Source: an uncultured Kiloniellaceae bacterium (GTDB lineage Bacteria; Pseudomonadota; Alphaproteobacteria; Kiloniellales; Kiloniellaceae). Taken from it: DNA of 64,000 nt. Positions within the stretch are counted from its first letter, which is position 1. Each line of letters starts with the position of its first letter. Shown in pieces: positions 41,428-61,710 of the stretch. A model generated the notes under the pieces. The model was given only the letters and a program-made list of their open reading frames with translations. It was not told the DNA's origin and ran no database searches. The stretch is taken from NCBI GenBank assembly GCA_947493695.1, contig CANLSF010000001.1:682001-746000 (forward strand), read 5' to 3'. The position numbers and the translations under genes are program-made.

Positions 41428-41925
41428 TCAGGAGGCCGCACCGGCCCGGTACATATGGTAGCGGCCAGGCCGAACATCCTCGGGAAGTTCCAGGACTTCG
41501 GCGCCTGGAAATGCAGTCTCCTGGTCCGAAATAATGATTCCGCCAGGGGCAAGAAGGTCAGGAAGAAAGCCCGCAATATAGCGGCCTATTTCGGCATTGC
41601 GGGCCTGATCCCCAGTGCCGATGTCCGAATGAATCAGCCGGACCTGCCCCCGGAAACGTTCCACCGCCGCCGGTAAGGTCTCTGAGAGATCGCCGAGAAA
41701 GAGGTGGTCATCGTCTGGAATACAGTCGGGATGTGCGGCGACCTTGCGCTCAAAGACAAAAATCTCGCACTCGGGGCAGATCTCGCGGATATGGTCGTAG
41801 GTACGGCCGTTGCCCAGGCCCAGCTCAAGGACAGGTCCTTTCAGACCCCGTACAAGGTCAATACCCTGCTGCAGGCAGGCGCGCTGCGCTTGCAGGCGCC
41901 GGATTACGCTATCTAAGCGGCTCAT
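41428..41925 (-). CDS. Small class I SAM-dependent methyltransferase
   Basis: 165 aa. SAM motif I PVLELGLGNGRTYDH (about 31-45), acidic motif II FVFERK, GDLSETLP, and IHSDIGTGD. Looks like the short Rhizobiales/Rhodospirillales S-adenosylmethionine methyltransferase family (Pfam Methyltransf_17 by recollection). Substrate unknown. Same strand as the cNMP-binding gene, 99 bases away. Confidence 0.78.
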   Translation of the reverse strand: MSRLDSVIRRLQAQRACLQQGIDLVRGLKGPVLELGLGNGRTYDHIREICPECEIFVFERKVAAHPDCIPDDDHLFLGDLSETLPAAVERFRGQVRLIHSDIGTGDQARNAEIGRYIAGFLPDLLAPGGIIISDQETAFPGAEVLELPEDVRPGRYHMYRAGAAS

Positions 41926-42024: not shown

Positions 42025-42477
42025 CTAGGCGTTTCCGGCCCGCGCCGCCATCAGCTGCGCTGTGGTCGCCTCAAGACGGTGTGCAAGAACACGCATGACC
42101 TCGACCCCCATCTCCGGAAAGTCCGTGACCATCCGGAAAAAGAGATCCTTGGTCACTTTCAGGGTTATCAGATCGCTCTCCGCTTTTACGGTTGCGGTTC
42201 TGGGAACATCGCAAAGAATCGCAATTTCACCAATGATGTCATTACGTTCCATGGTCGCGACGGTCAGGGGGCCATCAGGCGTATCGACCTGCACGTTCGC
42301 GGTACCGTCGATCAGAATATAGGCGGCATCACCCGGATCGCCCTGGCTACAGAGCACTTGTCCAGGCTTGAACATCATCCTTTCGCTGGCAAAGGCCATC
42401 AGCTTCAGCTTCGCCGGTTCCACATTGGCGAAAAGCGGAATGTTTCGAAGGATTTCAACTTCCTGCTCGATGCTCAT
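42025..42477 (-). CDS. Cyclic nucleotide-binding domain protein
   Basis: 150 aa, one CRP-like cNMP-binding beta barrel (about 10-125) with no DNA-binding helix-turn-helix. Visible: IPLFANVEPAKLKLMAFASE, FKPGQVLCSQGDPGDAAYIL, and the phosphate cassette region IIGEIAILCDVPRTATV, which retains the Glu and Arg typical of cyclic-nucleotide sites. Upstream on the same strand is the large unusual ABC transporter, so it might sense a signal for that system; direct evidence is lacking. Confidence 0.85.
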   Translation of the reverse strand: MSIEQEVEILRNIPLFANVEPAKLKLMAFASERMMFKPGQVLCSQGDPGDAAYILIDGTANVQVDTPDGPLTVATMERNDIIGEIAILCDVPRTATVKAESDLITLKVTKDLFFRMVTDFPEMGVEVMRVLAHRLEATTAQLMAARAGNA

Positions 42478-42727: not shown

Positions 42728-45448
42728 CTATTCAGCCGCCAGCAGCTCGCTGAGCGCCGATCCGGGCTGGGTCAGCTCCGCAAAGCTTCCCTGTTCCGCC
42801 ACCCTGCCGGCGCGCATCACCAGGACATGGTCGAAGTGTTCGGCAGCCTTGGGGTGCTGAAGAGTCCAGACGACGCCCTTGCCGCGGCGCTGGTTCAGAA
42901 CGGTCTCCAGCAGGCTTGTCTGCGTGGAACTATCCATTCCAGCGGCGGCCTCGTTAACGATCAGCACATCCGGTTGTTTCAGAAGACAGCGCGCAAACCC
43001 GAGTTTCTGGCGCTGAACAATGGAAAGCCTTGCCCCTGCGATGCCGACATTGAAGTCCAGACCCGCCTCGATTACCCGCTGCCGCAGCCCCAGTTCGTCC
43101 AGCAGTTCGGACATGACCCGGCCAATGGTCTCCGCCGCCTGAGCCTGGCCATAGGCCAAACGCCCGAAAAGGATGTTGTCCTGCAGGGACGCCGCCGCGT
43201 TGTAGGATTCGGGCCGATAGAAAGCTACCGCACCAGGGTCCTTATCCATCAATAGCTCTGAAAAGCGCTGGCGTCCCTCGACCAGCCGTGCCTCGGCCTC
43301 GGGATCGATCAGACCCAGACGATGGCGTTCCTCGACATATTTGAACGGCAGATTGAGCAGCAGCCCCTGATCTGTCTCGCTTAGCGCGGCCCGACCGGAT
43401 TTCTCGCCGCGTGCGATAAGGGTCGTGAACTCCGGCAGATCGTCCGCTTCGATAAAACTGAACTGCTCGAAGAAAGGATGGCCGGAAGGCAGGTCCGCGA
43501 AGATTTCAACCATCGTCTTGGCAATGCTGTAGCCCATGTCGAGCAGCAGGTCCGTCAGCCCCTTCTCGCTCAACACCTGCAGCATCAGCGGGTTCTGCGC
43601 CAGAACATCTGTCGCATAGACCGGATTGGTCGGCGTCCCGAACAGCAGGTTTTCCGCCAGCGTTGCATTCCTGTTGTAGGCACTGGGGTCGAAGCGCACC
43701 ACCAGGTCCTCGGCATCCTCGGAAGCAAGTCGGTCGGACAAGGCCGAGCGTGCAAGCAGAATGCTCTGCGCCACCTCGGCATGCGCATCGGCATCGATCG
43801 TTCCACTGAGCCCGAGCCGGTAAATATCCTCTTCCAGCCCAACGTCCTTCAGGATCCGGATCATATGGTCGTTGATTTCATCCGGCCCTGAGGCACCGGC
43901 AGCGGCATACTCCACCCAGTCGGCATCGAAATCCAATGCCGTGTTACCGGATCTCAAGGCCTCCGCCTTATCGGCAGCCCTTGTTGCCTTCCCCGCCTCG
44001 TCATACACCGCATCGCGCAAAGGCCGGTGTTTCAGACCGAAAAGCAGGTTATCGCGCACAGAAACCGGGAAGAAGTAGGTATTGGGACCGATGTAAGAGA
44101 TGCGGCGCCCGGTAACCGCCGAGGGCAAAGCCTGCAAATTTCTGCCGCCGAGCTTGACGCTGCCTGCGGTCGGCGCAATCAGCCCTGACAGCATCATGCT
44201 CAGATGGTCCTTGCCACTGCCGCTCGGGCCGACAATCGCAACATGGTTCGTGACATCGCAATCGAAGCTGACGCCCTCGACCAGATTGGTGTTGTTTTCG
44301 TCTTCCAGGGTAACGGAATTGACCTCTATGCGGCCGGAAAGCGTCGGTCCGCTGTCCTGATCCGGGTCCTGCAGCTCGGGATCGATGATCATGGCCGGCT
44401 GGAACTGGTCAATCACCTGATCGTATTTGATCTGCACGTCATTGCGCCGCTGGTCCCAGTCGATCAGCTCCTTGATCGGGCCCGGCAGGTCCTTGTAGGC
44501 CGCAATCACCGCGACCAGCGCACCGACGTCCAGGCGACCACTGATCACGAGCACACCGCCCGCCGAATAGAAGATGAAGGGCGTGAACTGGGAAAGCAGG
44601 TTGTTCAGGAATTTGACGAAGAATTTGCGCTGGAAGATCTCGAAACGGATCTTGTAGATCTCACCCAGGCGCTTGGTCATGTCCGCACGTTCGTAGTTCG
44701 TCGTATCGTGCGCCTGGATTTCCACCGCACCGTCGACGATCTCTGCCACCCGGCCTGCCAGCTTGCGCGCCGTAAGCTGCCGTTGCCGCCCCAGATCCAG
44801 GATCCGCTTGCGCAGCTTGGGGATCAGGACCGCCTGGAACAAAACGATCCCGGCAGCCACCAGACCCAGCCAGATGTTCTGAACCATGATGAAGAGCATG
44901 GCGGTGAGCGCCTGCCCACCCAAAAAGGCAGGCGTTACAAAGGCATCGCCGATAAATCCACCAAGCGGCTCGACCTCGTCCTTGATCATGGTCGCGACTT
45001 CGGCCTGCTTCACACGCCGAATGAAAGGGATCGGGAAACGCAGAACCCGGTCGGTCAGCTCGAAGCGCAAACGCCGCAGCATGCGCTCGCCGAGCTGTCC
45101 CTTGAAGGTATTGATGAAGAACTTGAAGCCGCCATTGACCATCACCAGCGCCAGGAACACGACACAGAGTGCGAGCAGATAGCTGTAAGGATCTAGTGCG
45201 AAGCCCTCGAACAGCGTGCCGTCGTTCCCCAACCCGAAAAGGCCTTCGAGGGAAAAGAGCGAGCGCTGCTGTTCCTCGCCCGCTTTTCCAATCAGGTCGT
45301 AACCGTCAATTATGCCTTCATTGACGATCTGCTTGGGAAGATTGAGCGATAAAAAATAGAACGGCAGAGATATCACCACCAGCAGGAGGATACCGACCTG
45401 CTCGCGCCGGCTGTGACGCCAGATGTATTTGAAGAGGTTGCGTTCCAT
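42728..45448 (-). CDS. Atypical ABC transporter, fused membrane and ATPase domains with expanded nucleotide domain
   Basis: 906 aa from ATG 45448 (MERNLFKYIWRHS); the frame extends 23 codons further. N-terminal exporter-type membrane domain with about six helices (about 10-330). Walker A is GPSGSGKD (about 405), with Asp in place of Ser/Thr. The signature ARLSIVQRQ and Walker B LIVNEAAAGMD lie about 400 residues later, where about 100 is normal, with Asn replacing the Walker B Asp; the catalytic Glu and switch His (TLQH) remain. The insertion contains three related segments ending DNLLFG, ENLLFG and DNILFG (about 465, 600, 757), each followed by a GL-containing helix. Substrate unknown; glycan genes are adjacent. 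Confidence 0.85.
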   Translation of the reverse strand: MERNLFKYIWRHSRREQVGILLLVVISLPFYFLSLNLPKQIVNEGIIDGYDLIGKAGEEQQRSLFSLEGLFGLGNDGTLFEGFALDPYSYLLALCVVFLALVMVNGGFKFFINTFKGQLGERMLRRLRFELTDRVLRFPIPFIRRVKQAEVATMIKDEVEPLGGFIGDAFVTPAFLGGQALTAMLFIMVQNIWLGLVAAGIVLFQAVLIPKLRKRILDLGRQRQLTARKLAGRVAEIVDGAVEIQAHDTTNYERADMTKRLGEIYKIRFEIFQRKFFVKFLNNLLSQFTPFIFYSAGGVLVISGRLDVGALVAVIAAYKDLPGPIKELIDWDQRRNDVQIKYDQVIDQFQPAMIIDPELQDPDQDSGPTLSGRIEVNSVTLEDENNTNLVEGVSFDCDVTNHVAIVGPSGSGKDHLSMMLSGLIAPTAGSVKLGGRNLQALPSAVTGRRISYIGPNTYFFPVSVRDNLLFGLKHRPLRDAVYDEAGKATRAADKAEALRSGNTALDFDADWVEYAAAGASGPDEINDHMIRILKDVGLEEDIYRLGLSGTIDADAHAEVAQSILLARSALSDRLASEDAEDLVVRFDPSAYNRNATLAENLLFGTPTNPVYATDVLAQNPLMLQVLSEKGLTDLLLDMGYSIAKTMVEIFADLPSGHPFFEQFSFIEADDLPEFTTLIARGEKSGRAALSETDQGLLLNLPFKYVEERHRLGLIDPEAEARLVEGRQRFSELLMDKDPGAVAFYRPESYNAAASLQDNILFGRLAYGQAQAAETIGRVMSELLDELGLRQRVIEAGLDFNVGIAGARLSIVQRQKLGFARCLLKQPDVLIVNEAAAGMDSSTQTSLLETVLNQRRGKGVVWTLQHPKAAEHFDHVLVMRAGRVAEQGSFAELTQPGSALSELLAAE

Positions 45449-45952
45449 ATAACGGGATCGACTGCTTTCGCCTAGATCGGATCTTATTTTGACGGAACCG
45501 GGTCGTGGTTTCTCCAAAAACGTGAATCCGTTCTACATCAAATAGTTAGAGCATATTCACAAGCTCGACAGATCACTTTTGGCGAGTCTATCTGAACTTG
45601 ATCTGCTCTAGGGTCTCGGATTCCCCGAATCCCCGACCTTAAACGATGACATTATAACGGTAAACACTGGCTGTATGATCCCTTTGAATCGCGGCATTCA
45701 TCACCAGAACCGCCGTGCCGGTCATATTATGGTGAACTCCCTTCACGTTTTTCGCGGAAGTGGTGCAAAATGATCTGGGCACCCCCAAGTTTTTGCGTTC
45801 AGGATCCGTTTTAAACCGGTCACGCAGTGCGGCAAATCGCCAAAACCTGATTATGCACACTGGTTGACACAGCAATACTGTGCAATTATCGCCGCCGAAA
45901 TGTGACAGGCTGGCTTGAAATTGAAGTCCGCAGGGGAACGAGAGAAGAGTTA
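45449..45952. other. Intergenic region with repeat copy B
   Basis: About 500 bases between the divergent ABC transporter and glycosyltransferase genes. Apart from repeat copy B (45522-45609) nothing was identified; a reverse ORF at 45639-46055 overlaps the glycosyltransferase start and looks like a shadow. Confidence 0.5.
45522..45609 (+). repeat. 88-bp palindromic intergenic repeat, copy B
   Basis: Same orientation as copy A and 2972 bp from it. Begins GTGAATCCG; terminal inverted repeat TAGAGCA / TGCTCTA (extending just past the aligned block); central TTTTGGCGA. Together the copies bracket the ABC transporter gene and its upstream region. Confidence 0.75.
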
Positions 45953-47200
45953 ATGGCCCAAAGCCCGCGCGACACGCGCGTTCTGATCTACAGCCACGAC
46001 AGCTTTGGGCTCGGACATCTGAGACGCTGCCGTGAAATCGCCCACACACTGGCAAAGGCCGAAGAAAATCTTTCGGTCCTGATCCTTTCCGGCTCGCCGA
46101 TCATCGGAAACTACGGTTTCTCGTCGCGCGTCGATTTCGTCCGGATTCCGGGCGTGATCAAGCTGCGCGACGGCGACTACACCTCCTTGAGCCTGCGCAT
46201 CGATATCAGCGACACACTTGCGATCCGCTCGTCGATTATCGAACATACCGCCAAGGTCTATGACCCGGACATCTTCATCGTCGACAAGGAGCCACTCGGC
46301 CTGCGCGGCGAAGTCAAATCGACCCTGAAGATGCTGAAAGCCCGCGGCACACCCTGCGTTCTGGGGCTGCGCGACGTTATGGACGAGCCGGACCTTCTGG
46401 CCCCGGAATGGGAGCGCAAAGGCGTCGAGCCGGCCTTGCGCAACTATTACGACGACATCTGGATCTACGGTCTGCCTCAGATCTGCGATCCGCTGGAAGG
46501 CATCGACCTGCCCCCCTCCGTGCACCGCAAGGTCACCTATACCGGTTATCTGCGCCGCAGCACGACCGAGGACGCGCCGCAGCCCAAGCTCGAGAAGATC
46601 AAGGAACCTTTCCTGCTGGTCACGGTGGGCGGCGGCGGCGACGGCGAAGCCATCATCGACTGGGTTCTGCGCGCCTACGAAACCGACCCCGATCTGCCAC
46701 ACCCGGCCTTAATCGTACTTGGGCCTTTCATGGGCTCCGAACTGCAGAGCGAGTTCATTGAGCGGGTGAACCGGCTCGATAACGTCGAGGCCATCACCTT
46801 TGATGCGCAGTTGGAGGCCTTTGTAAAACGCGCCTTGGCCGTGGTCGGTATGGGTGGATACAACACCTTCTGTGAAATCCTCTCCTTCGATAAGCGTGCC
46901 TTGATCGTTCCGCGTACGGAACCACGCCTGGAACAGTTTATCCGCGCCTCCCGGGCGCAGGACCTCGGTTTGCTGACCATGTTAACCGACGATGGCGAGC
47001 GCAGCCCGGCGACTATGGCGACGGCCCTGCGCAATCTGCCGCAGCAGCGCCTGCCCTCGGAGACTGTCGTGCCTGGTCTGCTGGACGGACGGGACAATGT
47101 GGTCAAGTTGACCAAACAATGGGTGTCCCGGCGCCAGACGGGCCTCGTCTCCTCCCTCGAAGACGACAGCGAAGACATTATGGTGCCCGGCGGATCGTAA
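45953..47200 (+). CDS. MurG-like glycosyltransferase (GT28 fold)
   Basis: 415 aa from ATG 45953 (MAQSPRDTRVLIYSHD), preferred over the GTG at 45902 because GAGAGAAG precedes it. N-domain FGLGHLRRCREIAHTLAKAE; C-domain glycine-rich LLVTVGGGGDGEAII and VVGMGGYNTFCEILSF, the nucleotide-sugar site of MurG/GT28 enzymes, followed by ALIVPRTEPRLEQFIRA. Cytoplasmic, transfers a sugar to an unknown acceptor. Related to the two paralogues at 49703 and 51492. Confidence 0.85.
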   Translation: MAQSPRDTRVLIYSHDSFGLGHLRRCREIAHTLAKAEENLSVLILSGSPIIGNYGFSSRVDFVRIPGVIKLRDGDYTSLSLRIDISDTLAIRSSIIEHTAKVYDPDIFIVDKEPLGLRGEVKSTLKMLKARGTPCVLGLRDVMDEPDLLAPEWERKGVEPALRNYYDDIWIYGLPQICDPLEGIDLPPSVHRKVTYTGYLRRSTTEDAPQPKLEKIKEPFLLVTVGGGGDGEAIIDWVLRAYETDPDLPHPALIVLGPFMGSELQSEFIERVNRLDNVEAITFDAQLEAFVKRALAVVGMGGYNTFCEILSFDKRALIVPRTEPRLEQFIRASRAQDLGLLTMLTDDGERSPATMATALRNLPQQRLPSETVVPGLLDGRDNVVKLTKQWVSRRQTGLVSSLEDDSEDIMVPGGS

Positions 47201-47288
47201 ACCGCACCTGCAGCTTGGACGCACAGTCGCGTCTCGTGCGAAATCAGCCTCTCACTTGCGCTTCATGGGTCATGAGTCCCAGGTATTT

Positions 47289-48533
47289 ATGAAACCAAGC
47301 ATTGCCGTCATTTTAAAAGGCTATCCGCGCCTGTCGGAAACCTTCATTGCCCAGGAACTGCGCGCGCTGGAGCAGCGTGGCCTTAACCTGCATTTCTTCT
47401 CTCTGCGCCATCCCACTGATACCTCCGTCCATCCGGTTCACCGAGAGATCACCGCGCCGGTCACCTATCTGCCGGAATACCTGCACAACGAACCGGCCCG
47501 CGTCTGGCGCGCCTGGCGGGCCGCCGCGAAGCTGCCCGGCTACAAGAAGTCCCGCGCCGCCTTCCTGCGCGACTTGGTCCGCGACCTGACCCCCAACCGA
47601 ATCCGCCGCTTTGGACAGGCTTGCGTTCTGGCGACCGAGCTGCCGGGTGCGATCACCCAGCTTTACGCCCATTTCCTTCACACACCGGCCTCCGTTACAC
47701 GTTACGCCGCGCTGATGACCGGCCTGCCCTGGTCCGCCTCCGCCCACGCCAAGGACATCTGGACCACGCCGGAATGGGAAAAACGTGAAAAACTGGCGGA
47801 ACTGTCATGGCTGGTGACCTGCACCGAGGTTGGCCGGGATCATCTGGCCAGTCTCGCCCCGCAGCCGGAAAAAGTCGGCCTGGTTTATCACGGACTCGAT
47901 TTCTCCCGCTTTTCCAACAATGAAGGCCAGGGTTCCGTCGAGGAAACAGCCTCGAACCGCAACGGCAGCGATGCTGCGGCCCCGGTCATTCTGCTCTCCG
48001 TAGGGCGGGCGGTGGAAAAGAAGGGCTACGACGACCTCCTGAATGCGCTGACCCGGCTGCCAAAAGACCTGCAGTGGCGATTGGTTCATATCGGAGGCGG
48101 CAAGCTGAAGGAAAAACTGCGAACACTCGGCCAGGAACTGGGGATCGACGACCGAATCGAGTGGCTCGGCGCGCAGCCCCAGGAAGTCGTTCTTGAGAAC
48201 TACCGCAAGGCGGACCTCTTCGTCCTGGCCAGCCGGATCGGGGGCGACGGGGATCGCGACGGCCTGCCCAACGTCCTGATGGAAGCGCAAAGTCAGGCCA
48301 TCGCCTGTGTTTCCACGGCGGTTTCGGCTATTCCCGAGTTGATCCGCGATGGGGAAACCGGTCTTCTGGTTCCGCCGGAAAATCCCACCGAACTGGCAAG
48401 CGCTCTTCAGAGTCTGATCACGGACCCAACCCGGCGCGCGGAGCTCGCAAACGCAGGCTGCAAGCGGGTCAGAAGTGAATTCGGCATGGAAAGCGGCATC
48501 GATGCGCTTGTGTCCCGTTTCGAGCAAACATAG
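47289..48533 (+). CDS. GT4-family glycosyltransferase
   Basis: 414 aa from ATG 47289 (MKPSIAVILKGYPRLSETFI); an earlier ATG at 47256 is in frame but lacks a better ribosome site. N-domain typical of capsule/exopolysaccharide GT4 enzymes (YPRLSETFIAQELRALE). C-domain: SVGRAVEKKGYDDLLNAL, HIGGGKLKEKL, and the nucleotide-sugar EX7E-like DGLPNVLMEAQSQAI. GT-B fold. Donor and acceptor unknown. Second gene of the glycan cluster. Confidence 0.88.
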   Translation: MKPSIAVILKGYPRLSETFIAQELRALEQRGLNLHFFSLRHPTDTSVHPVHREITAPVTYLPEYLHNEPARVWRAWRAAAKLPGYKKSRAAFLRDLVRDLTPNRIRRFGQACVLATELPGAITQLYAHFLHTPASVTRYAALMTGLPWSASAHAKDIWTTPEWEKREKLAELSWLVTCTEVGRDHLASLAPQPEKVGLVYHGLDFSRFSNNEGQGSVEETASNRNGSDAAAPVILLSVGRAVEKKGYDDLLNALTRLPKDLQWRLVHIGGGKLKEKLRTLGQELGIDDRIEWLGAQPQEVVLENYRKADLFVLASRIGGDGDRDGLPNVLMEAQSQAIACVSTAVSAIPELIRDGETGLLVPPENPTELASALQSLITDPTRRAELANAGCKRVRSEFGMESGIDALVSRFEQT

Positions 48534-48548
48534 GGTCTGTGGATACTC

Positions 48549-49706
48549 ATGCGTATCGCCTTCTATGCGCCTATGAAGCCGCCCGACCATCCGGTGCCCT
48601 CCGGCGACCGGCATATGGCGCGGCTGTTTCTTCAGGCCTTTGAAGAGGCCGGACACCAGGTTGAACTCGCCTGCCGCCTGCGCAGCCGTGAGCCCAAGGG
48701 CGACCCGCAACGTCAGGACCGGCTGAAACGCCTGGGAGACCGTCTCGCCGAGCGGCTTCTGCGGCATTACCGCGCCAGGCCGTCCGCGGAACGGCCACAG
48801 GTCTGGTTCACCTATCATCTCTATTACAAAGCCCCGGATTGGGTCGGCCCCAAAGTGGCCCGGGAACTGGGGATTCCCTACCTCGTCGCCGAGGCCTCCG
48901 TTGCCTACAAGCGCGCGGACGGCCCCTGGGACGCCGGACACCGCGCCATACTGGCGGCCCTCGCGCAGAGCGCTGCCGTGGTCACGGTCAATCCGCATGA
49001 TGCCGCCTGTCTGCCCGACGGCATTACGCTGGAAGCCATCAAACCTTTCCTGGACACTCGCCCTTTCCGGCAAACCGCCGAGCAAACTGCACCTGCGCGC
49101 AAAGCGCTGGCGCAAAGCCAAGATCTGGACCCGGATCAGCCCTGGCTGCTGGCGGTCGCCATGATGCGGCAAGGTGACAAACTGGCGTCTTACCGGCTGC
49201 TTGCGCAGGCGCTCGCGCCCTTGCAGGACCGGCCCTGGCAGCTTTTGATCGTGGGTGACGGCCCGGCCAGAAAGGATGTCGAAGCGGCCTTTGCGCAGAT
49301 TGCGCCAGAGCGTCTGCGCTATCTGGGCGAGCGCGCCCCCGAAGCCCTCCTGGAAATCTATGCCGCTGGTGATCTTTTCGTCTGGCCTGCAGTGAATGAG
49401 GCTTATGGCATGGCGCTTCTCGAAGCCCAGTCGCTTGGTGTACCGGTCATCGCCGCAAGAACCGGCGGCGTGCCTGCCGTTATCAAGGATGGAACCACCG
49501 GCCTGCTGACCCCGCCCGAAGATGCCGTTGCCTTCAGGGAGGCCATCACAACCCTGCTCGATCAGCCCGGGAAGCGCCGCGAAATGGCCAGCGCCGCCAT
49601 CGAAAAATCCACCCGCGAGCACGACCTTTCGAGCGCCTCCAGGGAACTGGACGCCATTCTGCAACGTGCCTTGCGCAGCGAAGCCGTCAGGGAGAACGCA
49701 GGGTGA
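48549..49706 (+). CDS. GT4-family glycosyltransferase
   Basis: 385 aa, ATG 48549. GT-B fold: N-terminal MRIAFYAPMKPPDHPVPSGD, central WLLAVAMMRQGDKLASYRLL, donor site NEAYGMALLEAQSLGVPVIA with the conserved Glu pair, and GTTGLLTPPEDAVAFREAI. Overlaps the next gene by four bases (GTGA). Probably adds a sugar to the same glycan as its neighbours. Confidence 0.87.
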   Translation: MRIAFYAPMKPPDHPVPSGDRHMARLFLQAFEEAGHQVELACRLRSREPKGDPQRQDRLKRLGDRLAERLLRHYRARPSAERPQVWFTYHLYYKAPDWVGPKVARELGIPYLVAEASVAYKRADGPWDAGHRAILAALAQSAAVVTVNPHDAACLPDGITLEAIKPFLDTRPFRQTAEQTAPARKALAQSQDLDPDQPWLLAVAMMRQGDKLASYRLLAQALAPLQDRPWQLLIVGDGPARKDVEAAFAQIAPERLRYLGERAPEALLEIYAAGDLFVWPAVNEAYGMALLEAQSLGVPVIAARTGGVPAVIKDGTTGLLTPPEDAVAFREAITTLLDQPGKRREMASAAIEKSTREHDLSSASRELDAILQRALRSEAVRENAG

Positions 49707-50896
49707 GCAGAGACCGCCGGACAGACGTCCTTTTCTACGTTCAGCATCTGCTGGGCATCGGCCATCAGAAGCGTGCCGCAACCCTGGCCCGCGCCATGGA
49801 GCGTCAAGGCCTGAACGTCACCTTCGTCTCCGGCGGAATGCCCGTACCGGGCCTGGATACCGGCACGGCGAAGTTCGTGCAGCTGCCGCCCCTGCGCGCC
49901 GAGGACATCCACTTCCGCCGGCTGGTCAATGATCAGGGCCTGGAAGCCGACGATGCCTTCAAGGCGATGCGGCGCGATCAGTTACTCAGTCTTTTCGAAG
50001 CCGAGCGGCCCCGCGCGCTCTTGATCGAGATGTTCCCCTTCGGCCGCCGTCAGATGCGCTTCGAACTGCGCCCCCTTCTCGAAGCCGCCCGGGCCACCGC
50101 CCCGCGCCCGCTGATCCTTTCCTCCGTCCGCGACATCCTGGTCGAACCGCCCAAGCAGGAACGCATCGTTGAGATGATCGACTGGATACAGCGGGTGTTC
50201 GACCACGCCCTGGTGCACGGCGACCCCAATCTCATCCCCTTCGACGAGACCTTCCCGCCTCTGCAGGAAATTGCCGATCAGGTTGTCTATACAGGTTATG
50301 TGGTTGATGAATCGGTGGATCAGCCCCCCCATCCCCAAGACGGGATCGATGAGATCCTGGTCTCGACCGGCGGTGGCGCGGTCAGCGAAGCCCTGGTGAC
50401 GGCCGCGCTGGCCGCCAGCCGACAATTGCCGGAAAATCTGGCTCAATTGCGTGACTGCCGCTGGCGCATTCTGATCGGCCACAGCCTGCCCGAGGCGGAG
50501 TTTCAGGCATTCCAGGCCCAAACCCCGGAGAACGTCATCCTGCAGCGGGCCCGTCCGGATTTCACCTCGTTGTTGCCTAATTGCCGCATCTCGATCAGCC
50601 AGGGCGGTTACAACACCGTCATGGAAGTCCTGCGTGCCGGTTGCCCCAGGGTAATCGTACCCTATTCGGGAGGCCTGGAGACCGAGCAGACCCTGCGCGC
50701 GCGCCTGCTGGCCGAGCGGGGTGCCCTGACCCTGCTGGAAGAACAAAGCCTGACCGCGGAGAGCCTCTTGCAGGCGGTCAGCACTGAGTTCGCGCGCAGC
50801 AAGGCCTCCAGCCTCGATCTGAATACCGATGGCGCCGCCCATACCGCCGAGCAGATTCAGACCCTTATATCCCGCCACGAAGAGGCACAGGCGTGA
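49703..50896 (+). CDS. MurG-like glycosyltransferase paralogue 1
   Basis: 397 aa, GTG start overlapping the previous stop. N-domain DVLFYVQHLLGIGHQKRAAT, FVSGGMPVPGLD and the strongly conserved EMFPFGRRQMRFEL; C-domain STGGGAVSEALV and SISQGGYNTVMEVLRAGCPR. About half of the N-terminal residues are shared by eye with the gene at 51492-52691. GT28-type transferase with unknown donor. Ends with another 4-base overlap. Confidence 0.86.
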   Translation: MSRDRRTDVLFYVQHLLGIGHQKRAATLARAMERQGLNVTFVSGGMPVPGLDTGTAKFVQLPPLRAEDIHFRRLVNDQGLEADDAFKAMRRDQLLSLFEAERPRALLIEMFPFGRRQMRFELRPLLEAARATAPRPLILSSVRDILVEPPKQERIVEMIDWIQRVFDHALVHGDPNLIPFDETFPPLQEIADQVVYTGYVVDESVDQPPHPQDGIDEILVSTGGGAVSEALVTAALAASRQLPENLAQLRDCRWRILIGHSLPEAEFQAFQAQTPENVILQRARPDFTSLLPNCRISISQGGYNTVMEVLRAGCPRVIVPYSGGLETEQTLRARLLAERGALTLLEEQSLTAESLLQAVSTEFARSKASSLDLNTDGAAHTAEQIQTLISRHEEAQA

Positions 50897-51495
50897 CCCT
50901 CCTCTTCATGATCCGTCATGGCGTGACAGCCTGGAACAAAGAAGGCCGCATTCAGGGACAAAGCGATATCGGTCTCTCCGACCAGGCGCGCGCGGAAATT
51001 CCCGCTTGGCATCTGCCCGATGAAGCGCTGGGTGCACGCTGGCTGACCAGCCCCCTGATCCGCGCCCGCGACACCGCTGCCCTGCTGGGTCATCCTGATG
51101 CGCAGATCGATGACCGCCTGCGGGAAATGCATTGGGGTGACTGGGAGGGCCAGCGCCTGGCCGATCTGCGCCGGGAGCTGGGCGAAGAAATGACCCGGAA
51201 TGAAGATCAGGGCCTGGATCTGCGCCCGCCCGGCGGCGAGAGCCCGCGAGAGGTTCAGGCCCGCCTCCAGCCCTTGCTTGCCGAACTCGGGCAGGATGAT
51301 GGGCATATTACCGCGGTCAGCCACAAGGGCGTCATCCGGGCGCTCTATGCGCGTGCCAGCGGCTGGAACATGTTGGGAAAACCACCGGTCAAACTCCGCG
51401 ACGGCTGTTGTCACGCCTTTCGGCTATCATCTGACGGAACAGCCGCGTTAGAAGAGCTCAACATTCCCATGCTTGCCAGGGTGCGCCATAGATGA
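50893..51495 (+). CDS. Histidine phosphatase superfamily protein
   Basis: 200 aa. RHG catalytic motif near the N-terminus (FMIRHGVTAWNKEGRIQGQS) with nucleophile His9, second His in AVSHKGVIRALYA, and the acid loop EMHWGDWEG. Dephosphorylates a small metabolite or glycan precursor; not an obvious phosphoglycerate mutase. Sandwiched, with 4-base overlaps on both sides, between the two GT paralogues, so it probably acts in their pathway. Confidence 0.9.
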   Translation: MTLLFMIRHGVTAWNKEGRIQGQSDIGLSDQARAEIPAWHLPDEALGARWLTSPLIRARDTAALLGHPDAQIDDRLREMHWGDWEGQRLADLRRELGEEMTRNEDQGLDLRPPGGESPREVQARLQPLLAELGQDDGHITAVSHKGVIRALYARASGWNMLGKPPVKLRDGCCHAFRLSSDGTAALEELNIPMLARVRHR

Positions 51496-52691
51496 CCGTC
51501 CCGTCGAACTCTTCCGAACGCGCCGATGTTCTTTTCTACGTCCAGCACCTGCTGGGGATCGGGCATCTGCGCCGGGCCAGTGTTCTGGCGCGCGCCATGG
51601 ACCGGGCCGGCCTGCGGGTGGTCTTCGTTTCCGGAGGCATGCCGGTGCCGGGTACCGATGTTGGCGGCTGCGAATTTGTCCAACTCCCACCTCTGCGCAC
51701 CCTTGATGAGAGCTTTAGCGCTCTGGTCGATGCAGAGGGTTGGGAACTGGACGATCAGGGCAAGGCAGCACGCCGCAACCAGCTGCTAAGCCTGCTGGAA
51801 ACACACAAGCCGCGCGTGCTGCTCTTTGAGATGTTTCCTTTCGGACGCCGGCAGATGCGGTTCGAGCTCCTGCCGCTGCTCGATGCCGCCAAGGCTTCGG
51901 ATCAGCCACCACAGATTCTCTGCTCCCTGCGCGAAATCCTGACCACCCACAAAAAGCCCGGCAAGACCGAGTGGATACTGGAAGCCGTCGAACGCTACTT
52001 CGATCAGGTTCTGGTCCACGGCGATCCGGCTTTCGTCACCCTTGAGCAGTCCTTTCCCGCGACAGAGTCCTTTCGCGACAAGATCCGCTACACAGGTTAC
52101 GTGGTCGAGACCGCTCATGCTCCAGGCGCCACAAGCAACAAGCATGACGGCGAAGTTCTGGTGTCCGCCGGGGGTGGCGCCGTTGCGGCCCCATTGATCG
52201 AGGCTGCGATCTCCGCGCGCCCGCTCACCTCGGTATCGGATGTGCCCTGGCGCCTGCTTGCAGGTATGAACCTGCCCGAAGCGAGTTTCCAGAAGCTGCA
52301 ACAGCTCTGTGGCGAAGGCATCACCCTGGAGCGGGCCCGCCCGGATTTCACGGAACTTCTGTCCAGGGCGCGGCTTTCCATCAGTCAGGCCGGTTACAAC
52401 ACCATCATGGATATCCTGGCTGCCGAGGTTCCCGCGGTCCTGGTGCCGTTCGCGGCGACCTCGCAGACCGAACAGGCCCTGCGCGCCCGGCTGCTGGCCG
52501 ATCGCGGTGCCGCGGTGGTGCTGACGGAAGACAAGCTGAACGCCAACAGCCTGGCCGCTGCGGTTGAGCAGGCTCTGGCGCCTGCGCAGAAGGCACAGCT
52601 TTTCGATAAACTGGATATTACCGGCGCTGAACGCACCGCTGCGCTGGTCCGCGCATTGGCCGACGACCCGGAAAGCGGTGCTGTCTCATGA
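51492..52691 (+). CDS. MurG-like glycosyltransferase paralogue 2
   Basis: 399 aa, ATG overlapping the phosphatase stop (ATGA). Same architecture as the gene at 49703: DVLFYVQHLLGIGHLRRASV, EMFPFGRRQMRFELLPLLD, SAGGGAVAAPLI and SISQAGYNTIMDILAAEVPA. A tandem duplicate separated by the phosphatase gene; the pair may add successive sugars. No membrane anchor. Confidence 0.86.
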   Translation: MTVPSNSSERADVLFYVQHLLGIGHLRRASVLARAMDRAGLRVVFVSGGMPVPGTDVGGCEFVQLPPLRTLDESFSALVDAEGWELDDQGKAARRNQLLSLLETHKPRVLLFEMFPFGRRQMRFELLPLLDAAKASDQPPQILCSLREILTTHKKPGKTEWILEAVERYFDQVLVHGDPAFVTLEQSFPATESFRDKIRYTGYVVETAHAPGATSNKHDGEVLVSAGGGAVAAPLIEAAISARPLTSVSDVPWRLLAGMNLPEASFQKLQQLCGEGITLERARPDFTELLSRARLSISQAGYNTIMDILAAEVPAVLVPFAATSQTEQALRARLLADRGAAVVLTEDKLNANSLAAAVEQALAPAQKAQLFDKLDITGAERTAALVRALADDPESGAVS

Positions 52692-54096: not shown

Positions 54097-54284
54097 CATA
54101 CGCGTCCAAGCCGGTCAGCGGTTTAAGAGCCGAAGTGACGACAGGTCCCTGTTGGGATAGTCTGCGCTTGCGGCTCGCCGCCATGGGGTGTGTGGTTGCT
54201 GAGTCGGATTGTCACTTGTTTCTCAGGGGCGATCAGACTCTAACGTCCGGGAGGAAGATACGAATTGGGGGAATGCGACGTTGA
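54093..54284 (+). CDS. Possible 63-aa ORF bridging two operons
   Basis: Starts GTG 54093 in a GTGA overlap with the preceding stop and ends TGA 54282-54284 in a TTGA overlap with the TTG start chosen for the ABC ATPase. The double coupling is suggestive. Codon use is poor for this genome (TTA, AGA, CTA, ATA, CGA, GGA) and the peptide (MTYASKPVSGLRAEV...) is unlike any family I know. May be chance. Confidence 0.3.
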   Translation: MTYASKPVSGLRAEVTTGPCWDSLRLRLAAMGCVVAESDCHLFLRGDQTLTSGRKIRIGGMRR

Positions 54285-56206
54285 GTGACCTGGACCAGGC
54301 CTCGAATACTGATCTCCTGCGGGTCCAGGATCTGCGGATTTCCTTTTCCCTGCCGGAAGGCAAGCTGGACGCCGTGCGCGGTGTCTCCTTCAACATCGCT
54401 CGTGGTTCGACAGTCGCGCTGGTGGGGGAATCCGGCTCGGGCAAATCCGTGGTCAGTCAGGCAATCATGGGAATTCTGCCCAAGTCCGCGCAGATCGAGG
54501 GTGGCCAGATCCTCTTTGCGGACCCGGCCAATGGCGGTGCGGTCATAGACATCGCCGCATTGCAGCCCGATAGCGCCGCCATGCGCGACATCCGCGGCAG
54601 CCGCATCTCGATCGTGTTTCAGGAACCCATGACCTCCCTCTCGGCGGTCCATACTGTGGGCAATCAGATCGGTGAAGCCCTGCACCTGCACCAGAAGGTC
54701 AGCGGGCCCCAGGGGCGCGAAATGGTGATCGACATCCTGCGTCTGGTCGGCTTTCCCAACCCGGCCCGCGCCTACGACACTTATCCCTTCGAGCTTTCAG
54801 GCGGTTTGCGCCAACGTGCGGTCATCGCCATGGCCCTGGTCTGCCGCCCGGCCCTGCTGATCGCCGACGAGCCCACCACCGCACTGGACGTCACGATCCA
54901 GGCCCAGATCCTCAAGCTGATCAAAGACCTGCAGACCGAACTCAAGATGTCGGTCCTGATGATCACCCATGACCTGGGGGTCGTCGCCAATGTCGCCGAT
55001 CAGGTCGTGGTCATGTACCACGGCGAGGTGATGGAACGGGGTGATCTGAACGACATCTACGGCAATCCCGGCCATCCTTATCTCAAGGCCCTGCTGCACG
55101 CGGTGCCTCGCTTCGATATGAAGCCGGGCGAGCGCCTGCAGCCGATCCGCGAGATCACACATGACAGCGGCGTCAATCTGGGCGACGGCATGAAGCCCTG
55201 GCCCGACGATCCCAACGAGCCGCCCCTGCTGCGGGTCGAGCATATCTCCAAGACCTACAACACCCGCAAGGGCGGCTTTTTCGGCCCCAGCGAGGACACT
55301 TCGGTCCTGGCGGTCGACGATGTGAGTTTTGCGGTTAAACGGGGCGAATGCCTGGGTCTGGTCGGCGAGAGCGGTTGCGGAAAGACCACGCTGTCAAAAA
55401 TCATCATGCGGGCCGCCACGGCGGACGAAGGCAACATCGTCTTTAACGACCGGGGCAACGCCACGGACGTGCTGGCTCTGCAAGGGAAGGACCTGGTCGA
55501 CTTCCGCACCCGGATCCAGTTCGTGTTTCAGGATCCCTTCTCTTCGCTGAACCCACGCATGACCGTGTTCGAGCTGATCAGCGAACCCCTGATCATCCAT
55601 GGCATGAGCGACGCAGCCGAACGTGCCGAATTGGTCAAGGAACTGATGCGCGTGGTCGGCCTCGACGTGCGCTACCTCAAGCGCTACCCCCACAGCTTCT
55701 CCGGTGGACAGCGCCAGCGCATCGGTATTGCCCGGGCTCTGGCGCTGAAGCCGGATCTTCTGATCTGCGACGAGCCGGTTTCCGCCCTGGACGTGTCGAT
55801 CCAGGCCCAGGTTCTGAACCTGCTGAAGGATCTGCAAGCCTCCCTCGGGCTGACTTACATTTTCATCAGCCACAACCTGGCCGTGGTCGACTACATCGCG
55901 GACCGGATCGCGGTGATGTGCCGGGGCCGTCTGGTTGAGCTGGCCCCCAGGGAACTGCTGTTCCGCGCCCCGACCCATCCCTACACGCAGGCGCTGCTGA
56001 CTGCCGTACCGGAGCCGGACCCGGCGCATAGGCTCGATCTTACAGCGCTTATGGAAGGCCGGGCCTCGAACCCGGAAACCTGGCCTCATCCCTTCACCAT
56101 CGACGGACGGAACAAACTGGGCATGGTCGATCTGGGTGACGGGCACTTCGTGCGGGCACAGGCTTCATCAAACGATGAACTCCGCAGCGCGGCGGCGGGG
56201 GCGTAA
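54281..56206 (+). CDS. ABC importer ATPase with two fused nucleotide domains (Opp/Dpp D-F type)
   Basis: 641 aa from TTG 54281, with TGGGGGAA upstream; an in-frame start at 54209 is less likely. First ATPase (about 10-270): [35 protein letters not shown]. Second (about 320-600): [35 protein letters not shown]. Fused OppD-OppF layout like YejF and GsiA. Powers the two permeases downstream. No binding protein is adjacent. Confidence 0.92.
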
Positions 56207-56208
56207 AG

Positions 56209-57207
56209 ATGCTGGGCTATACCGTTCGCCGCATCCTCACGATGATCCCCACTCTGTTGGCGATCAGTTTCATCATCTTCGTGATCATCCAGCTGCCGCC
56301 GGGCGACTTTCTGGAGACCGAAATCGCCGAGATGCAGGCCCAGGGCGAGGCGGTCGATCCGGCAAAGATCGAGTACCTGCGCCGGGAATACGGCCTGGAC
56401 AAGCCTTTCCTGGAGCAGTACGCGGTCTGGGTTTTCGGACTGGTGCAGGGAGACCTCGGCTTTTCCTTCGAACATCAGCTTCCGGTCAACGAAGTTATCG
56501 GCGATCGCATGTGGCTGACCTTCGTGGTCGCCCTGGCCACCATCCTCTTCACCTACGCCGTTGCCTTTCCCATTGGCATCTATTCGGCGGTGCGGCAGTA
56601 CAGCGTCGGCGACTACGTCCTGACCTTCATCGGCTTCCTGGGCCTAGCGACCCCGAATTTCCTGCTCGCCCTGGTCTTGCTCTATTTCGCCAATCTCTGG
56701 TTCGGCACCTCCATCGGCGGTCTGATGGATCCGAAATACGTCGACCACCCCTGGACCTGGAGCAAGGTGAGTTCGATCCTGGAGCACCTCTGGATCCCGG
56801 TCATCGTGATCGGCACCTCGGGCACCGCTGCCATGATCCGGCGTCTGCGCGCCAACCTGCTGGACGAACTGCAGAAACAGTACGTGATCACAGCCCGCGC
56901 CAAGGGTTTGTCGCCCTTGAAGGTCCTGCTGAAGTACCCGCTGCGCATGGCGGTGAACCCCTTCATCGCGGATATCGGCAACGTCCTGCCGCAGCTGATT
57001 TCCGGCGCGGTTCTGGTATCGGTCGTGCTCAGCCTGGAGACCACCGGGCCCATGCTGGTCCGGGCCCTGCAGAGCCAGGACATGTATCTCGCCGGCTCCT
57101 TCCTGATGTTTGAGGCCAGTCTTGTGGTGATCGGCGTCTTTATCTCGGATCTGGCGCTCGCGGTGCTGGATCCCCGTATCCGGCTCGCCGGAGGGGCCAC
57201 GAAATGA
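56209..57207 (+). CDS. ABC importer permease, DppB/OppB type
   Basis: 332 aa, about six helices. N-terminal MLGYTVRRILTMIPTLLAIS, YLRREYGLDKPFLEQYAVWV, GDLGFSFEHQLPVNEVIGDR, and the cytoplasmic coupling loop QYVITARAKGLSPLKVLLKY. Begins two bases after the ATPase gene and overlaps the next permease by four bases. Confidence 0.92.
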   Translation: MLGYTVRRILTMIPTLLAISFIIFVIIQLPPGDFLETEIAEMQAQGEAVDPAKIEYLRREYGLDKPFLEQYAVWVFGLVQGDLGFSFEHQLPVNEVIGDRMWLTFVVALATILFTYAVAFPIGIYSAVRQYSVGDYVLTFIGFLGLATPNFLLALVLLYFANLWFGTSIGGLMDPKYVDHPWTWSKVSSILEHLWIPVIVIGTSGTAAMIRRLRANLLDELQKQYVITARAKGLSPLKVLLKYPLRMAVNPFIADIGNVLPQLISGAVLVSVVLSLETTGPMLVRALQSQDMYLAGSFLMFEASLVVIGVFISDLALAVLDPRIRLAGGATK

Positions 57208-58397
57208 GCGATCAGACCCTGCCGCCCCGAAACTCAGAACCTCCGCAGGACAATGGCGGCCACTACGTCAATCCGGCGCCCTTCGATCCACAATCCGTTG
57301 CCGCGCTCACACCCGAGCAGGAACGCTACTACATGGCCTCGCAGTGGCGGATCATGTGGTGGAAATTCAAACGCCACAAACTGGCGGTCTACTCCGGCGT
57401 CGTGCTGATCATGATGTATTTCGTGGCGGCGTTCTGCGAAATCTTTGCGCCCTACAACCTGCACAGCCGCCATATCGACTACATCCATGCGCCGCCCCAG
57501 GGAATCCATCTCTTTCACGAAGGCGAGTTCGTCGGGCCCTTTGTCTACGGCTACGACTACCGGCTCAACATGGAGAATCTGCGGCGCGAATACACGCCGA
57601 ACCCGGAAAAGGTCGAGAAGCTGAGGTTTTTCTGCAGCGGTGAGAGCTATAAGTTCTGGGGTCTGATCGAGGGTGATTTTCATCTGGTCTGCGCGGCCGA
57701 GAACGGCACCGCCTTTTTCTGGGGCACGGATCGTCTGGGACGGGACCTTCTGAGCCGCATCTTCTATGGATCGCGGATCTCCCTGACCATCGGCCTGATC
57801 GGCGTGGCCATCAGCTTCATCCTCGGCACCATCATCGGCGGCATCGCCGGTTACTACGGCGGCTGGGTCGACAACATCGTTCAGCGCGCCATCGAGATCT
57901 TCAAGTCCTTCCCCGAATTACCGCTCTTTATGACCCTCTCGGCATTGCTGCCGGTCAGCTGGAGTCCGATAGGTGTCTTCTTCGGAATATCCGTGATCCT
58001 TGGCCTGCTGGATTGGCCCGGGCTGGCCCGTGCGGTGCGTTCCAAGCTGCTCAGCCTGCGGGAAGAGGATTTTTGCACCGCGGCCCAACTGATGGGGGCC
58101 TCCCCCAAACGGGTGATCGGAAAGCATCTGCTGCCCAGTTTCGCCAGCCACCTGATCGCCTCGGCCACACTCGCGATCCCGACCATGATCCTGGGCGAGA
58201 CCGCCCTGTCGTTTCTCGGCCTCGGCCTTCGTCCGCCGATCACCTCCTGGGGTGTCCTGCTGAACGAAGCCCAGAACATCAACGTGGTCGCCCTCTATCC
58301 CTGGCTGATGCTGCCGGTCCAGCCGGTCATCCTGGTGATCCTGGCCTTCAACTTCCTGGGCGACGGCCTGCGCGACGCAGCGGATCCTTATAAATAA
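57204..58397 (+). CDS. ABC importer permease, DppC/OppC type with enlarged periplasmic loop
   Basis: 397 aa, about 100 longer than E. coli DppC. The extra length is a periplasmic segment (about 90-175) between helix 1 and the conserved FFWGTDRLGRDLLSRIFYGS. Coupling loop EEDFCTAAQLMGASPKRVIG; C-terminal FNFLGDGLRDAADPYK. Enlarged loops like this occur in oligosaccharide-type members of the peptide/nickel family, so the substrate may be a peptide or an oligosaccharide. Confidence 0.9.
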   Translation: MSDQTLPPRNSEPPQDNGGHYVNPAPFDPQSVAALTPEQERYYMASQWRIMWWKFKRHKLAVYSGVVLIMMYFVAAFCEIFAPYNLHSRHIDYIHAPPQGIHLFHEGEFVGPFVYGYDYRLNMENLRREYTPNPEKVEKLRFFCSGESYKFWGLIEGDFHLVCAAENGTAFFWGTDRLGRDLLSRIFYGSRISLTIGLIGVAISFILGTIIGGIAGYYGGWVDNIVQRAIEIFKSFPELPLFMTLSALLPVSWSPIGVFFGISVILGLLDWPGLARAVRSKLLSLREEDFCTAAQLMGASPKRVIGKHLLPSFASHLIASATLAIPTMILGETALSFLGLGLRPPITSWGVLLNEAQNINVVALYPWLMLPVQPVILVILAFNFLGDGLRDAADPYK

Positions 58398-60034: not shown

Positions 60035-60721
60035 ATGCTGGATTTCCGTTCGCCACCGCAGCTCAGCGGTGCATTTGTGGCGGGTCTGCCGCTCCACCTC
60101 TTGCCGACCCACCCCATCGCCTGGTTCTTGCAACGCACAGCCGCCGCTTTCTGCCGATTACACCCGGGTGTCCCGGAGCGACTGTCAGACTACGCAGGTC
60201 GCCGCCTCTACTTGGATCCCGGTGATCTGCCGATCGCGTTCATCCTGACCCTGACCAGCGACACGCCCCGGATTACCGTCGTCACCGAACAAGCATCTTC
60301 GACGGAAAACCTCGACGCGAGCGTGAGGGGCACCCTCGCCAATCTCACCGCGTTGCTGGAAGGGGAAGTCGACGGAGATGCGCTCTTCTTCTCCAGACAC
60401 CTGCAGATCACCGGCGACATGGAGCTGGTGCTGGCCTTGCGCAATGCGCTCGATGATGCCCAGGTCGATCTGCGCGAGGTCATTGGCGAAACCTTCGGGC
60501 GCGCCGCACCCTTTGGACAGACGGCTCTGAACGCCGCACTTGGCGTAACCGCGCAGCTGGACCATGGCGTGTCGCTGGTCAGTCGTGCGGTGACGGCAAC
60601 AACTCAGGAACAGCTGGAGCGCCAGACCGCAGAGATCGAGAAACTGCGCGCAGAGGTCCGGGAGCTGCGCGGACAGCGGCGCCGAACAGGCACACGGCAT
60701 CAAAGAGAGAGTGCATCATGA
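60035..60721 (+). CDS. ubiT: Ubiquinone synthesis accessory protein UbiT (SCP2 domain)
   Basis: 228 aa. SCP2-like lipid-binding domain (about 30-150: LPTHPIAWFLQRTAAAFCRL, GDALFFSRHLQITGDMELVL) followed by a charged coiled coil (about 175-220: RQTAEIEKLRAEVRELRGQR). In O2-independent ubiquinone synthesis UbiT is thought to hold the lipid intermediate for UbiU-UbiV. Overlaps ubiU by four bases. Confidence 0.9.
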   Translation: MLDFRSPPQLSGAFVAGLPLHLLPTHPIAWFLQRTAAAFCRLHPGVPERLSDYAGRRLYLDPGDLPIAFILTLTSDTPRITVVTEQASSTENLDASVRGTLANLTALLEGEVDGDALFFSRHLQITGDMELVLALRNALDDAQVDLREVIGETFGRAAPFGQTALNAALGVTAQLDHGVSLVSRAVTATTQEQLERQTAEIEKLRAEVRELRGQRRRTGTRHQRESAS

Positions 60722-61710
60722 CCTTGCCACGACTGGAGCTGGTCTGTCCGGCAGGCACGCCGTCGGCGCTGGAAGCCGCGGTCGATGCCGGTGCCGATAC
60801 CGTCTATCTCGGGTTTCGGGACGCCACCAACGCCCGAAACTTCCCCGGCCTCAATTTCAGCCGGAAGGAACTCGAGACCTCTCTGAACTATGCGCACACG
60901 CGCGGCAGCAAGGTCTACCTTGCGATCAACAGCTTTCCACAGGCCGGTAACGAAGCCCCCTGGCGTCAGGCGGTGGACGATGCGGCCAGACTGGGAGTCG
61001 ACGCCATCATCGTCTCGGATATCGGTGTCCTCGACTACGCAACGCAGACCCATCCCGATCTGCGGCGTCACCTCTCCGTCCAGGCCTCGGCAGCGCATCC
61101 CCTGGCCCTCGCATACTATCACCGCAACTTCGGCATCACCCGGGCGGTCCTGCCACGTGTTCTCACGGTTCCTCAGATCAAGGAGATCACTGCGACCGCG
61201 CCGGTTGAGACGGAAGTCTTCGTCTACGGCGGCATGTGTCCGATGGCCGAGGGCCGCTGCGCCCTCTCCTCCTACGCGACGGGTCGGTCTCCCAACACCG
61301 CCGGTGTCTGCTCGCCCGCCAGCCATGTCCGCTATGTCCCCGAAGGAGAACGGGTCCAGGTGCGTCTTGGCGACTTCACCATCAACCGCTTTGAACCGGG
61401 TGAAGCGTCGGGATATCCCACGCTCTGCAAGGGACGCTTCAAAGTGCGCGACCACGCCAGCTACCTCTTCGAGGATCCGGTCAGCCTTGATGCGAGACCA
61501 CTGATCCCCGAATTGGCGGCCGCGGGGGTGAAAGCCCTGAAGATCGAAGGCCGCCAGCGGGGCCGCGCCTACATTGCACAGGTGGTCAGCGCTCTGCGTC
61601 AGGCCGTGGAAGATGCTGCGGCAGGCCGCGCTCCGGATACCGCCTCCCTGGCTTCACTCAGCGAAGGTGGCCGGGGCACCGGTGGCGCTTACAGAAAGGA
61701 CTGGCGATGA
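60718..61710 (+). CDS. ubiU: O2-independent ubiquinone hydroxylation protein UbiU (U32 family)
   Basis: 330 aa. U32 fold: LVCPAGTPSALEAAVDAGAD, YLGFRDATNARNF. Four cluster cysteines C174, C181, C198 and C237; spacing equals that recalled for E. coli UbiU (C169, C176, C193, C232), each shifted by five. Binds 4Fe-4S and acts with UbiV in hydroxylation without O2. 4-base overlaps with both neighbours. Confidence 0.94.
   Translation: MTLPRLELVCPAGTPSALEAAVDAGADTVYLGFRDATNARNFPGLNFSRKELETSLNYAHTRGSKVYLAINSFPQAGNEAPWRQAVDDAARLGVDAIIVSDIGVLDYATQTHPDLRRHLSVQASAAHPLALAYYHRNFGITRAVLPRVLTVPQIKEITATAPVETEVFVYGGMCPMAEGRCALSSYATGRSPNTAGVCSPASHVRYVPEGERVQVRLGDFTINRFEPGEASGYPTLCKGRFKVRDHASYLFEDPVSLDARPLIPELAAAGVKALKIEGRQRGRAYIAQVVSALRQAVEDAAAGRAPDTASLASLSEGGRGTGGAYRKDWR

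Follow-up and report, generated by a model that had tools for sequence, protein, structure and literature searches.

A mostly alphaproteobacterial ABC-exporter-like family with degenerate catalytic motifs, an enlarged nucleotide domain and a linked cyclic-nucleotide-binding partner

ATP-binding cassette (ABC) proteins are defined by ATP-driven work, and CFTR and SUR are ABC proteins turned channel or channel regulator that still use ATP. In the type IV exporters, such as MsbA, TmrAB and PCAT1, the exporter membrane domain precedes the nucleotide-binding domain. Heterodimeric exporters in which one of the two sites is degenerate, namely TM287/288, TmrAB and TAP, are described in PMC7756269. The gene analysed in this work lies in a 64,000-nucleotide stretch of DNA from an uncultured Kiloniellaceae bacterium (assembly GCA_947493695.1, contig CANLSF010000001.1, positions 682,001 to 746,000 of the forward strand), which as a whole is called the window. 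Its product shares with MsbA, TmrAB and PCAT1 the order of membrane and nucleotide domains, but the family to which it belongs differs from them in the loss of catalytic residues, in about 300 extra residues with repeated heads resembling the Q-loop region, and in a partner carrying a cyclic-nucleotide-binding domain (CNBD). Judged by its sequences, this family belongs to the exporter fold class and lacks the hallmarks of an ATP-hydrolysing ABC transporter. The best NCBIfam match of the ABC protein (TIGR03796) and the second match of its partner (TIGR03896) both come from NHLM bacteriocin exporters, systems that have a cyclic-nucleotide-binding accessory, although the scores fall far under the cut-offs (157 vs 853 bits and 42 vs 161 bits, respectively). 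The protein and its membrane part are placed as follows.

42728..45448, minus strand: putative ABC-exporter-like pseudo-transporter of 906 residues (translation; Pfam ABC_membrane over residues 90-316 and ABC_tran over residues 391-503)
44369..45448, minus strand: transmembrane domain, residues 1-360 (mean pairwise identity 0.57 over residues 87-360, against 0.36 for the N-lobe of the nucleotide domain)

The reading frame is intact, without internal stop, and probably starts at the ATG at 45448, since homologues begin at the equivalent place. The exporter fold is recognized by Pfam PF00664 at 60.9 bits (cut-off 28), and the ABC_tran match also exceeds its cut-off. An AlphaFold2 model built with 115 sequences has a mean predicted local distance difference test score (pLDDT) of 89.2, and its blocks between residue 371 and the C-terminus score 87-98; Foldseek matches the model to exporters (best E 3.7e-19), and the highest target-normalised TM-score among the 50 matches listed is 0.64, with PaMsbA (9bd6_A). 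There are 13 frames with ABC_membrane matches in the window's genome, and the one in the window is the only one longer than 900 codons. The initial annotation had reported an interval of about 400 residues between Walker A and signature; it measures about 401 residues, against 104-109 in the seven of the 12 other exporters of this genome in which the spacing pattern could be measured.

Using the insertion (residues 477-806) as query, we found matches in 47 of 58 related genomes, in 131 of 385 genomes of the class, and in 31 of 398 genomes of a phylum sample, all 31 of them in the window's class, the number of out-of-class genomes in that sample not having been established. A scan of named genomes returned 502 encoding stretches, and among the best 80 of these are Kiloniellaceae, Pelagibius, Kiloniella, Reyranella, Dongia, Enhydrobacter and others, with Denitrobaculum tricleocarpae (91%) and Pelagibius sp. 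Alg239-R121 (87%) as the nearest named relatives. Metagenome-assembled genomes labelled Betaproteobacteria make up one tree branch of 13 rows, their assignment being that of the label alone. After reduction of 187 loci, 156 distinct homologous proteins remained, and these are the basis of the family counts below. None of the 156 lacks the long interval between Walker A and signature, which measures 368-474 residues, so that the window protein is a member of a widespread family and no oddity. Against PDB sequences, the insertion gave a single weak, chance-like match (CpcN, E 0.007).

The motifs of the nucleotide domain read as the initial annotation quoted them:

44297..44302, minus strand: A-loop position, Asp383-Glu384, aromatic in canonical exporters (residue 383 aligns with the canonical Tyr)
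44207..44230, minus strand: Walker A GPSGSGKD, residues 407-414, with Asp replacing Ser/Thr (letters checked)
43013..43027, minus strand: degenerate signature LSIVQ, residues 808-812 (read from the sequence)
42950..42964, minus strand: Walker B LIVNE, residues 829-833, with Asn replacing Asp (position 832 counted over the 156 homologues)
42854..42856, minus strand: switch position, His865 in the window protein and Arg in most homologues (counted over the 156 homologues)

The window protein thus has neither the Walker A pattern GxxGxGK[ST] nor the Walker B pair of Asp and catalytic Glu nor the A-loop aromatic, and where an LSGGQ signature and a Q-loop Gln would be expected it has LSIVQ and Pro455, the switch His alone of these three being kept. 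Across the family the loss goes further. At the last residue of Walker A (position 414) we count 63 Glu, 57 Asp, 15 Ser and 21 others, i.e. 120 acids, and at the Walker B Asp position (832) 102 Asn, 31 Asp, 11 Ser and 12 others; the Walker A Lys is kept in 94 proteins. The catalytic Glu and the switch His, noted earlier as retained, are so in the window protein but not throughout the family, where Glu is kept in 79/156 and His in 6, with Arg in 99; likewise the missing Q-loop Gln is true of the window protein but is no family trait, as Gln occurs in 41/156. In canonical exporters the A-loop aromatic stacks on adenine. Residue 383 is Asp in 116 and Glu in 31 proteins and is never aromatic, and the neighbouring positions 384, 382 and 381 are aromatic in 0, 8 and 22. 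When six catalytic positions are scored (Lys, Ser/Thr, Gln, Asp, Glu and His), no protein keeps more than four (L158, L176, L177 and L179), and 24/156 keep none. Normally spaced homologues with GKS and DE, which would have spoken against the initial reading, are absent among the 156, and the four members that do carry GKS and DE have the long spacing.

The replacement of Ser/Thr by an acid in Walker A and of Asp by Asn in Walker B had suggested that the Mg-binding acid moved from the latter to the former. As a pattern the exchange is family-wide: exactly one acid occurs across the two positions in 139/156, with an acid at Walker A only in 114, Asp at Walker B only in 25, both in six and neither in 11. 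On a membrane-domain tree of 115 rows (81 Walker A acid only, 22 Walker B Asp only, five both and seven neither), the two acid traits must have changed at least 9 and 13 times, and a likelihood test of dependent against independent evolution, run with our own script on a quick tree of this domain with midpoint root, gave a likelihood ratio of 18.4 (p 0.001). The stricter independent-pairs test was not significant (median p 0.5), with too few pairs (five on starred branches). The Rhodovibrio sodomensis member (L090, 3037-5751), placed among acid-swapped members, combines a Walker A Ser with a Walker B Asp, as though it had reverted at the two positions at once.

That the acid serves Mg-ATP is not supported by its distribution. 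The one-acid rule holds in 87/94 members with the Walker A Lys and also in 52/62 members without it, and hence does not depend on whether the phosphate-binding loop is intact. The two positions would be better explained by an electrostatic or structural pairing, or by a metal bound there that takes no part in ATP chemistry. A rewired but working ATPase, as first proposed, has in its favour that the swap is family-wide, but we consider it very improbable, given that Lys, Gln, Glu, His and the A-loop aromatic are gone in many or all of the relatives that keep the swap. Because the one-acid rule holds without Lys, at most four of the six catalytic residues are kept and the A-loop position is never aromatic, the family looks, from its sequences, like a pseudo-ATPase and not like a rewired Mg site. 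The other option given at first, that the domain binds but barely hydrolyses ATP, comes close, although the evidence from the family goes beyond it and suggests a non-hydrolytic domain. A related alternative is that the domain binds ATP, with a metal perhaps held by the Walker A acid, and does not hydrolyse it, ATP then being a structural cofactor or energy sensor that the CNBD modulates. The Lys retained in 94/156, the single acid in 139/156 and the correlated evolution of the two positions agree with this, but the persistence of the rule without Lys, the Asp or Glu in 147/156 at an A-loop position that is never aromatic, and the outcome of the independent-pairs test do not, and we regard it as rather unlikely.

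What we think is the key to the family is an adjoining gene that the initial annotation had missed, encoding a CNBD protein:

42025..42477, minus strand: CNBD partner of 150 residues, downstream of the ABC gene and on the same strand (Pfam cNMP_binding, PF00027, E 1.3e-18)
42190..42231, minus strand: phosphate-binding cassette of the partner, GEIAILCDVPRTAT (letters checked)

The partner resembles the CRP/CNG superfamily (PF00027) in its cassette G-E-x-A ... R-T-A, and differs in having no other Pfam domain within its 150 residues and in being genetically tied to an ABC-fold protein. By profile search, a CNBD is encoded by a separate same-strand downstream gene in 135/156 and is a fused C-terminal domain in 14/156; Pfam confirms it in all six fused proteins tested, and the gap between the two genes at the 135 loci is -4 to 615 nt (median 28). 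An earlier count by clusters of open reading frames (ORFs), in which overlapping ORFs probably displaced the CNBD, had given 40/88 loci and is superseded by the profile search (149/156). The ligand-binding cassette looks intact and its residues are nearly invariant, Gly being present in 149, Glu or Asp in 147 and Arg in 148 of the 149 partners. Seven proteins are without CNBD (L038, L156, L155, L151, L181, L182 and L183). At L038 a broken CNBD match adjoins, and at L156 the downstream stretch is partly N; at L155 the CNBD is truly absent from the locus. The remaining four have the family nucleotide domain and insertion, but their membrane domains reach just 10.6-11.6 bits with the family profile or are missing from its matches. 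Together with L186, these four form a set in which the same nucleotide domain and insertion accompany a membrane domain with a marginal or no profile score and strongly degenerate motifs, with no CNBD found.

Further, class III cyclases were detected in 42 of the 43 genomes with the family and in 48 of the 99 without it (Fisher p 1e-9). Among the family genomes of this sample only G164 has no detected class III cyclase, and it is also the genome that holds the CNBD-less locus L155, a coincidence that fits a cyclic-nucleotide input. That genome, of 2.0 Mb and given as 100% complete, keeps the pseudo-ABC gene with neither an adjoining CNBD nor a detected class III cyclase.

Residues 447-824 can be divided into three units, each with a head:

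43721..44110, minus strand: unit 1, residues 447-576, the Q-loop-type head at its canonical place and the first extra helices (hhalign against the canonical segment 66.0, best shuffle 25.6; predicted elements)
43241..43720, minus strand: unit 2, residues 577-736, the inserted head PSAYNRNATLAENLLFG and a helical region (head 2 against head 3, 66.9, best shuffle 15.0)
42977..43240, minus strand: unit 3, residues 737-824, the head PESYNAAASLQDNILFG running into the signature helix (hhalign against the canonical segment 133, best shuffle 20.2)

Three related units had been claimed, and they are indeed present: each head pair scores above all 40 column shuffles, and so does each head against the canonical segment. 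In particular, hhalign gave 27.7 for heads 1 and 2, 31.6 for heads 1 and 3 and 66.9 for heads 2 and 3 (best shuffles 19.5, 14.9 and 15.0), and 64.9, 31.5 and 29.4 for heads 1, 2 and 3 against the canonical Q-to-signature stretch of 10 exporters of the window's genome (best shuffles 17.9, 15.4 and 20.1). A head consists of a strand, a Q-loop-like loop, a helix with a terminal [FY]G motif and a short strand. For the tails, the first two are related (39.5, best shuffle 13.9), the first and third marginally so (20.7, best shuffle 18.1), tail 3 being the real signature helix, and the second and third are unrelated by profile, 27/40 shuffles scoring as high. In the AlphaFold2 model every unit runs strand, helix, short strand, helix, GL-helix, long helix, with extra elements within units 1 and 2, and residues 570-746 predicted alone reach a pLDDT of 93.5. 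The suggestion that the whole helical subdomain was triplicated is thus partly supported: there are three copies of the heads and GL-helices, but a clear relation between tails is confined to units 1 and 2, and unit 2 predicted alone has no significant match among solved structures (best E 1.4). The core of the idea stands, with much of unit 2 being helical material without a recognized relative.

Compared with these changes in the motor domain, which has mean pairwise identities of 0.31 in the H-loop, 0.36 in the N-lobe and 0.43 in Walker A, the membrane domain is better conserved (0.57 over residues 87-360, rising to 0.79 over residues 154-168; 115 rows). A decaying family without present function would account for the degraded motifs, but there is no internal stop among the matches listed, the membrane domain and heads are well conserved and the CNBD linkage is kept, and we find decay hardly credible.

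Moreover, membrane halves of the same kind exist on their own. Querying 142 class genomes with residues 1-360 (E<=1e-12) yielded, in addition to family members, 11 stand-alone membrane-domain frames of 323-425 codons in 10 genomes (L191-L201). A twelfth short frame (in G195) was set aside as a family copy of 62% identity with its insertion on a different contig. The family membrane profile scores all 11 halves at 137-314 bits and canonical exporters from one genome at no more than 39.5 bits, two of eight being detected. In a 43-row tree with eight of the halves, these group with the family against eight canonical rows of one genome (99/97), seven lying outside the family clade and L191 inside it, with long branches that leave such details unsure. 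All frames returned by the reverse search with one half (E<=1e-10) had 323-425 or 876-1386 codons, and the usual exporter length did not occur among them. ABC_tran was not found in 10 neighbours of the stand-alone halves, and a search for ATPase motifs across the 11 loci gave one candidate, on the opposite strand, at L197. These sequences raise the possibility that the stand-alone halves are a new group of motorless ABC proteins.

Alternatively, the window protein might be the degenerate half of a heterodimer, with a canonical half elsewhere or a stand-alone membrane half, and with hydrolysis at one site or none. All 10 genomes with a stand-alone half also carry the family (hypergeometric 2.9e-6, descent ignored), and heterodimers with one degenerate site are established (PMC7756269). 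The stand-alone half is present in only 10 of the 43 family genomes, the window's not among them, and such halves have no ATPase domain. Partner halves of heterodimeric exporters are usually encoded side by side, yet no exporter half lies beside the ABC gene in the window's genome, where more than 600 kb separate it from the next ABC_membrane frame of its contig. TM287/288, TmrAB and TAP are alike in having degenerate catalytic residues in one half, but in the present family all 156 proteins are degenerate and, in the window's genome, no exporter half is nearby; we judge a heterodimer unlikely.

Catalytic loss, a constant insertion with repeated heads, linkage or fusion to a CNBD, a conserved membrane domain and relatives without an ATPase domain are what the family presents. 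Judged by conservation, selection appears to have kept the membrane domain, the repeated heads and the cyclic-nucleotide pocket, and not ATP hydrolysis, and this pattern leads us to suggest a relay platform and a cyclic-nucleotide-controlled gate or flippase. We consider it somewhat more probable than an even chance that this is a family of ABC-exporter fold whose nucleotide domains have turned pseudo-ATPase and which takes a cyclic nucleotide as its control input. The CNBD partner, whether a separate gene product or, in some relatives, a C-terminal domain, would bind cAMP or cGMP and dock on the enlarged pseudo-ATPase domain through the insertion, that domain acting as a docking and relay platform. 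Docking would alter the mutual arrangement of two pseudo-ATPase domains, presumably of a homodimer; this shift would be transmitted by the intracellular part of the membrane domain, which is well conserved, and the membrane part may then open, flip or let a substrate pass without a cycle of ATP hydrolysis. More tentatively, we suggest that exporters, chiefly in Alphaproteobacteria, may have yielded a lineage that gave up ATP as fuel, a cyclic-nucleotide-gated channel or facilitator of ABC fold made of pseudo-ABC and CNBD, and a sister lineage of naked membrane halves without any ATPase domain that perhaps pair with it.

Several observations weigh against this proposal. The Walker A Lys and the Walker B Glu persist in 94/156 and 79/156, with which ATP binding remains compatible, four members have GKS and DE, and eight have an aromatic residue one position before the A-loop position. 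The signature stretch, at a mean identity of 0.55, is not the lowest-conserved part, and the inserted unit 2, predicted alone, matched no solved structure significantly. At least five of the 156 have such a nucleotide domain with no CNBD found by profile search, both genome size and descent are confounders of the association with cyclases, and G164 is a lone example.

The surroundings of the gene add two further features:

45902..47200, plus strand: divergent glycosyltransferase, GT28-C-like (its ORF cluster occurs in 50/88 loci, 121/128 ORFs lying upstream)
41428..41925, minus strand: Methyltransf_17 gene further downstream (Pfam E 1.9e-53; relatives in 19/88 loci)

The former opens a run of glycosyltransferase genes (two of group 1 and three GT28-C-like) with a histidine phosphatase gene, 45902-52691, divergent from the ABC gene; a glycan or glycolipid substrate is a weak guess from these neighbours. 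One neighbour cluster, found in 11/88 loci, is by its look an ABC ATPase of importer type, the neighbour clusters having been annotated in part. Elsewhere in the window, 54209-58397 holds genes of an oligopeptide-type ABC importer, among them one for a GsiA-like fused double ATPase and two for permeases, and 60035-62594 holds an SCP2-domain gene followed by two Peptidase_U32 genes, which we take to recall the UbiT-UbiU-UbiV set of oxygen-independent ubiquinone synthesis.

In the PMC literature searched, judged largely by titles and abstracts, we found no paper on a family that is degenerate throughout and tied to a CNBD. A parallel in function may be CFTR and SUR, with which it would share the use of the ABC fold for gating, not pumping, under a signal pathway, the conserved input here being the CNBD. 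If the proposal is true, the family would be a bacterial counterpart of the conversion seen in CFTR and SUR and would put directly to the test which functions remain to an ABC membrane domain deprived of its motor. In addition, the pairing of changes at the two Walker motifs, including the apparently switched-back L090, may serve as a natural experiment on the metal site of P-loop proteins.

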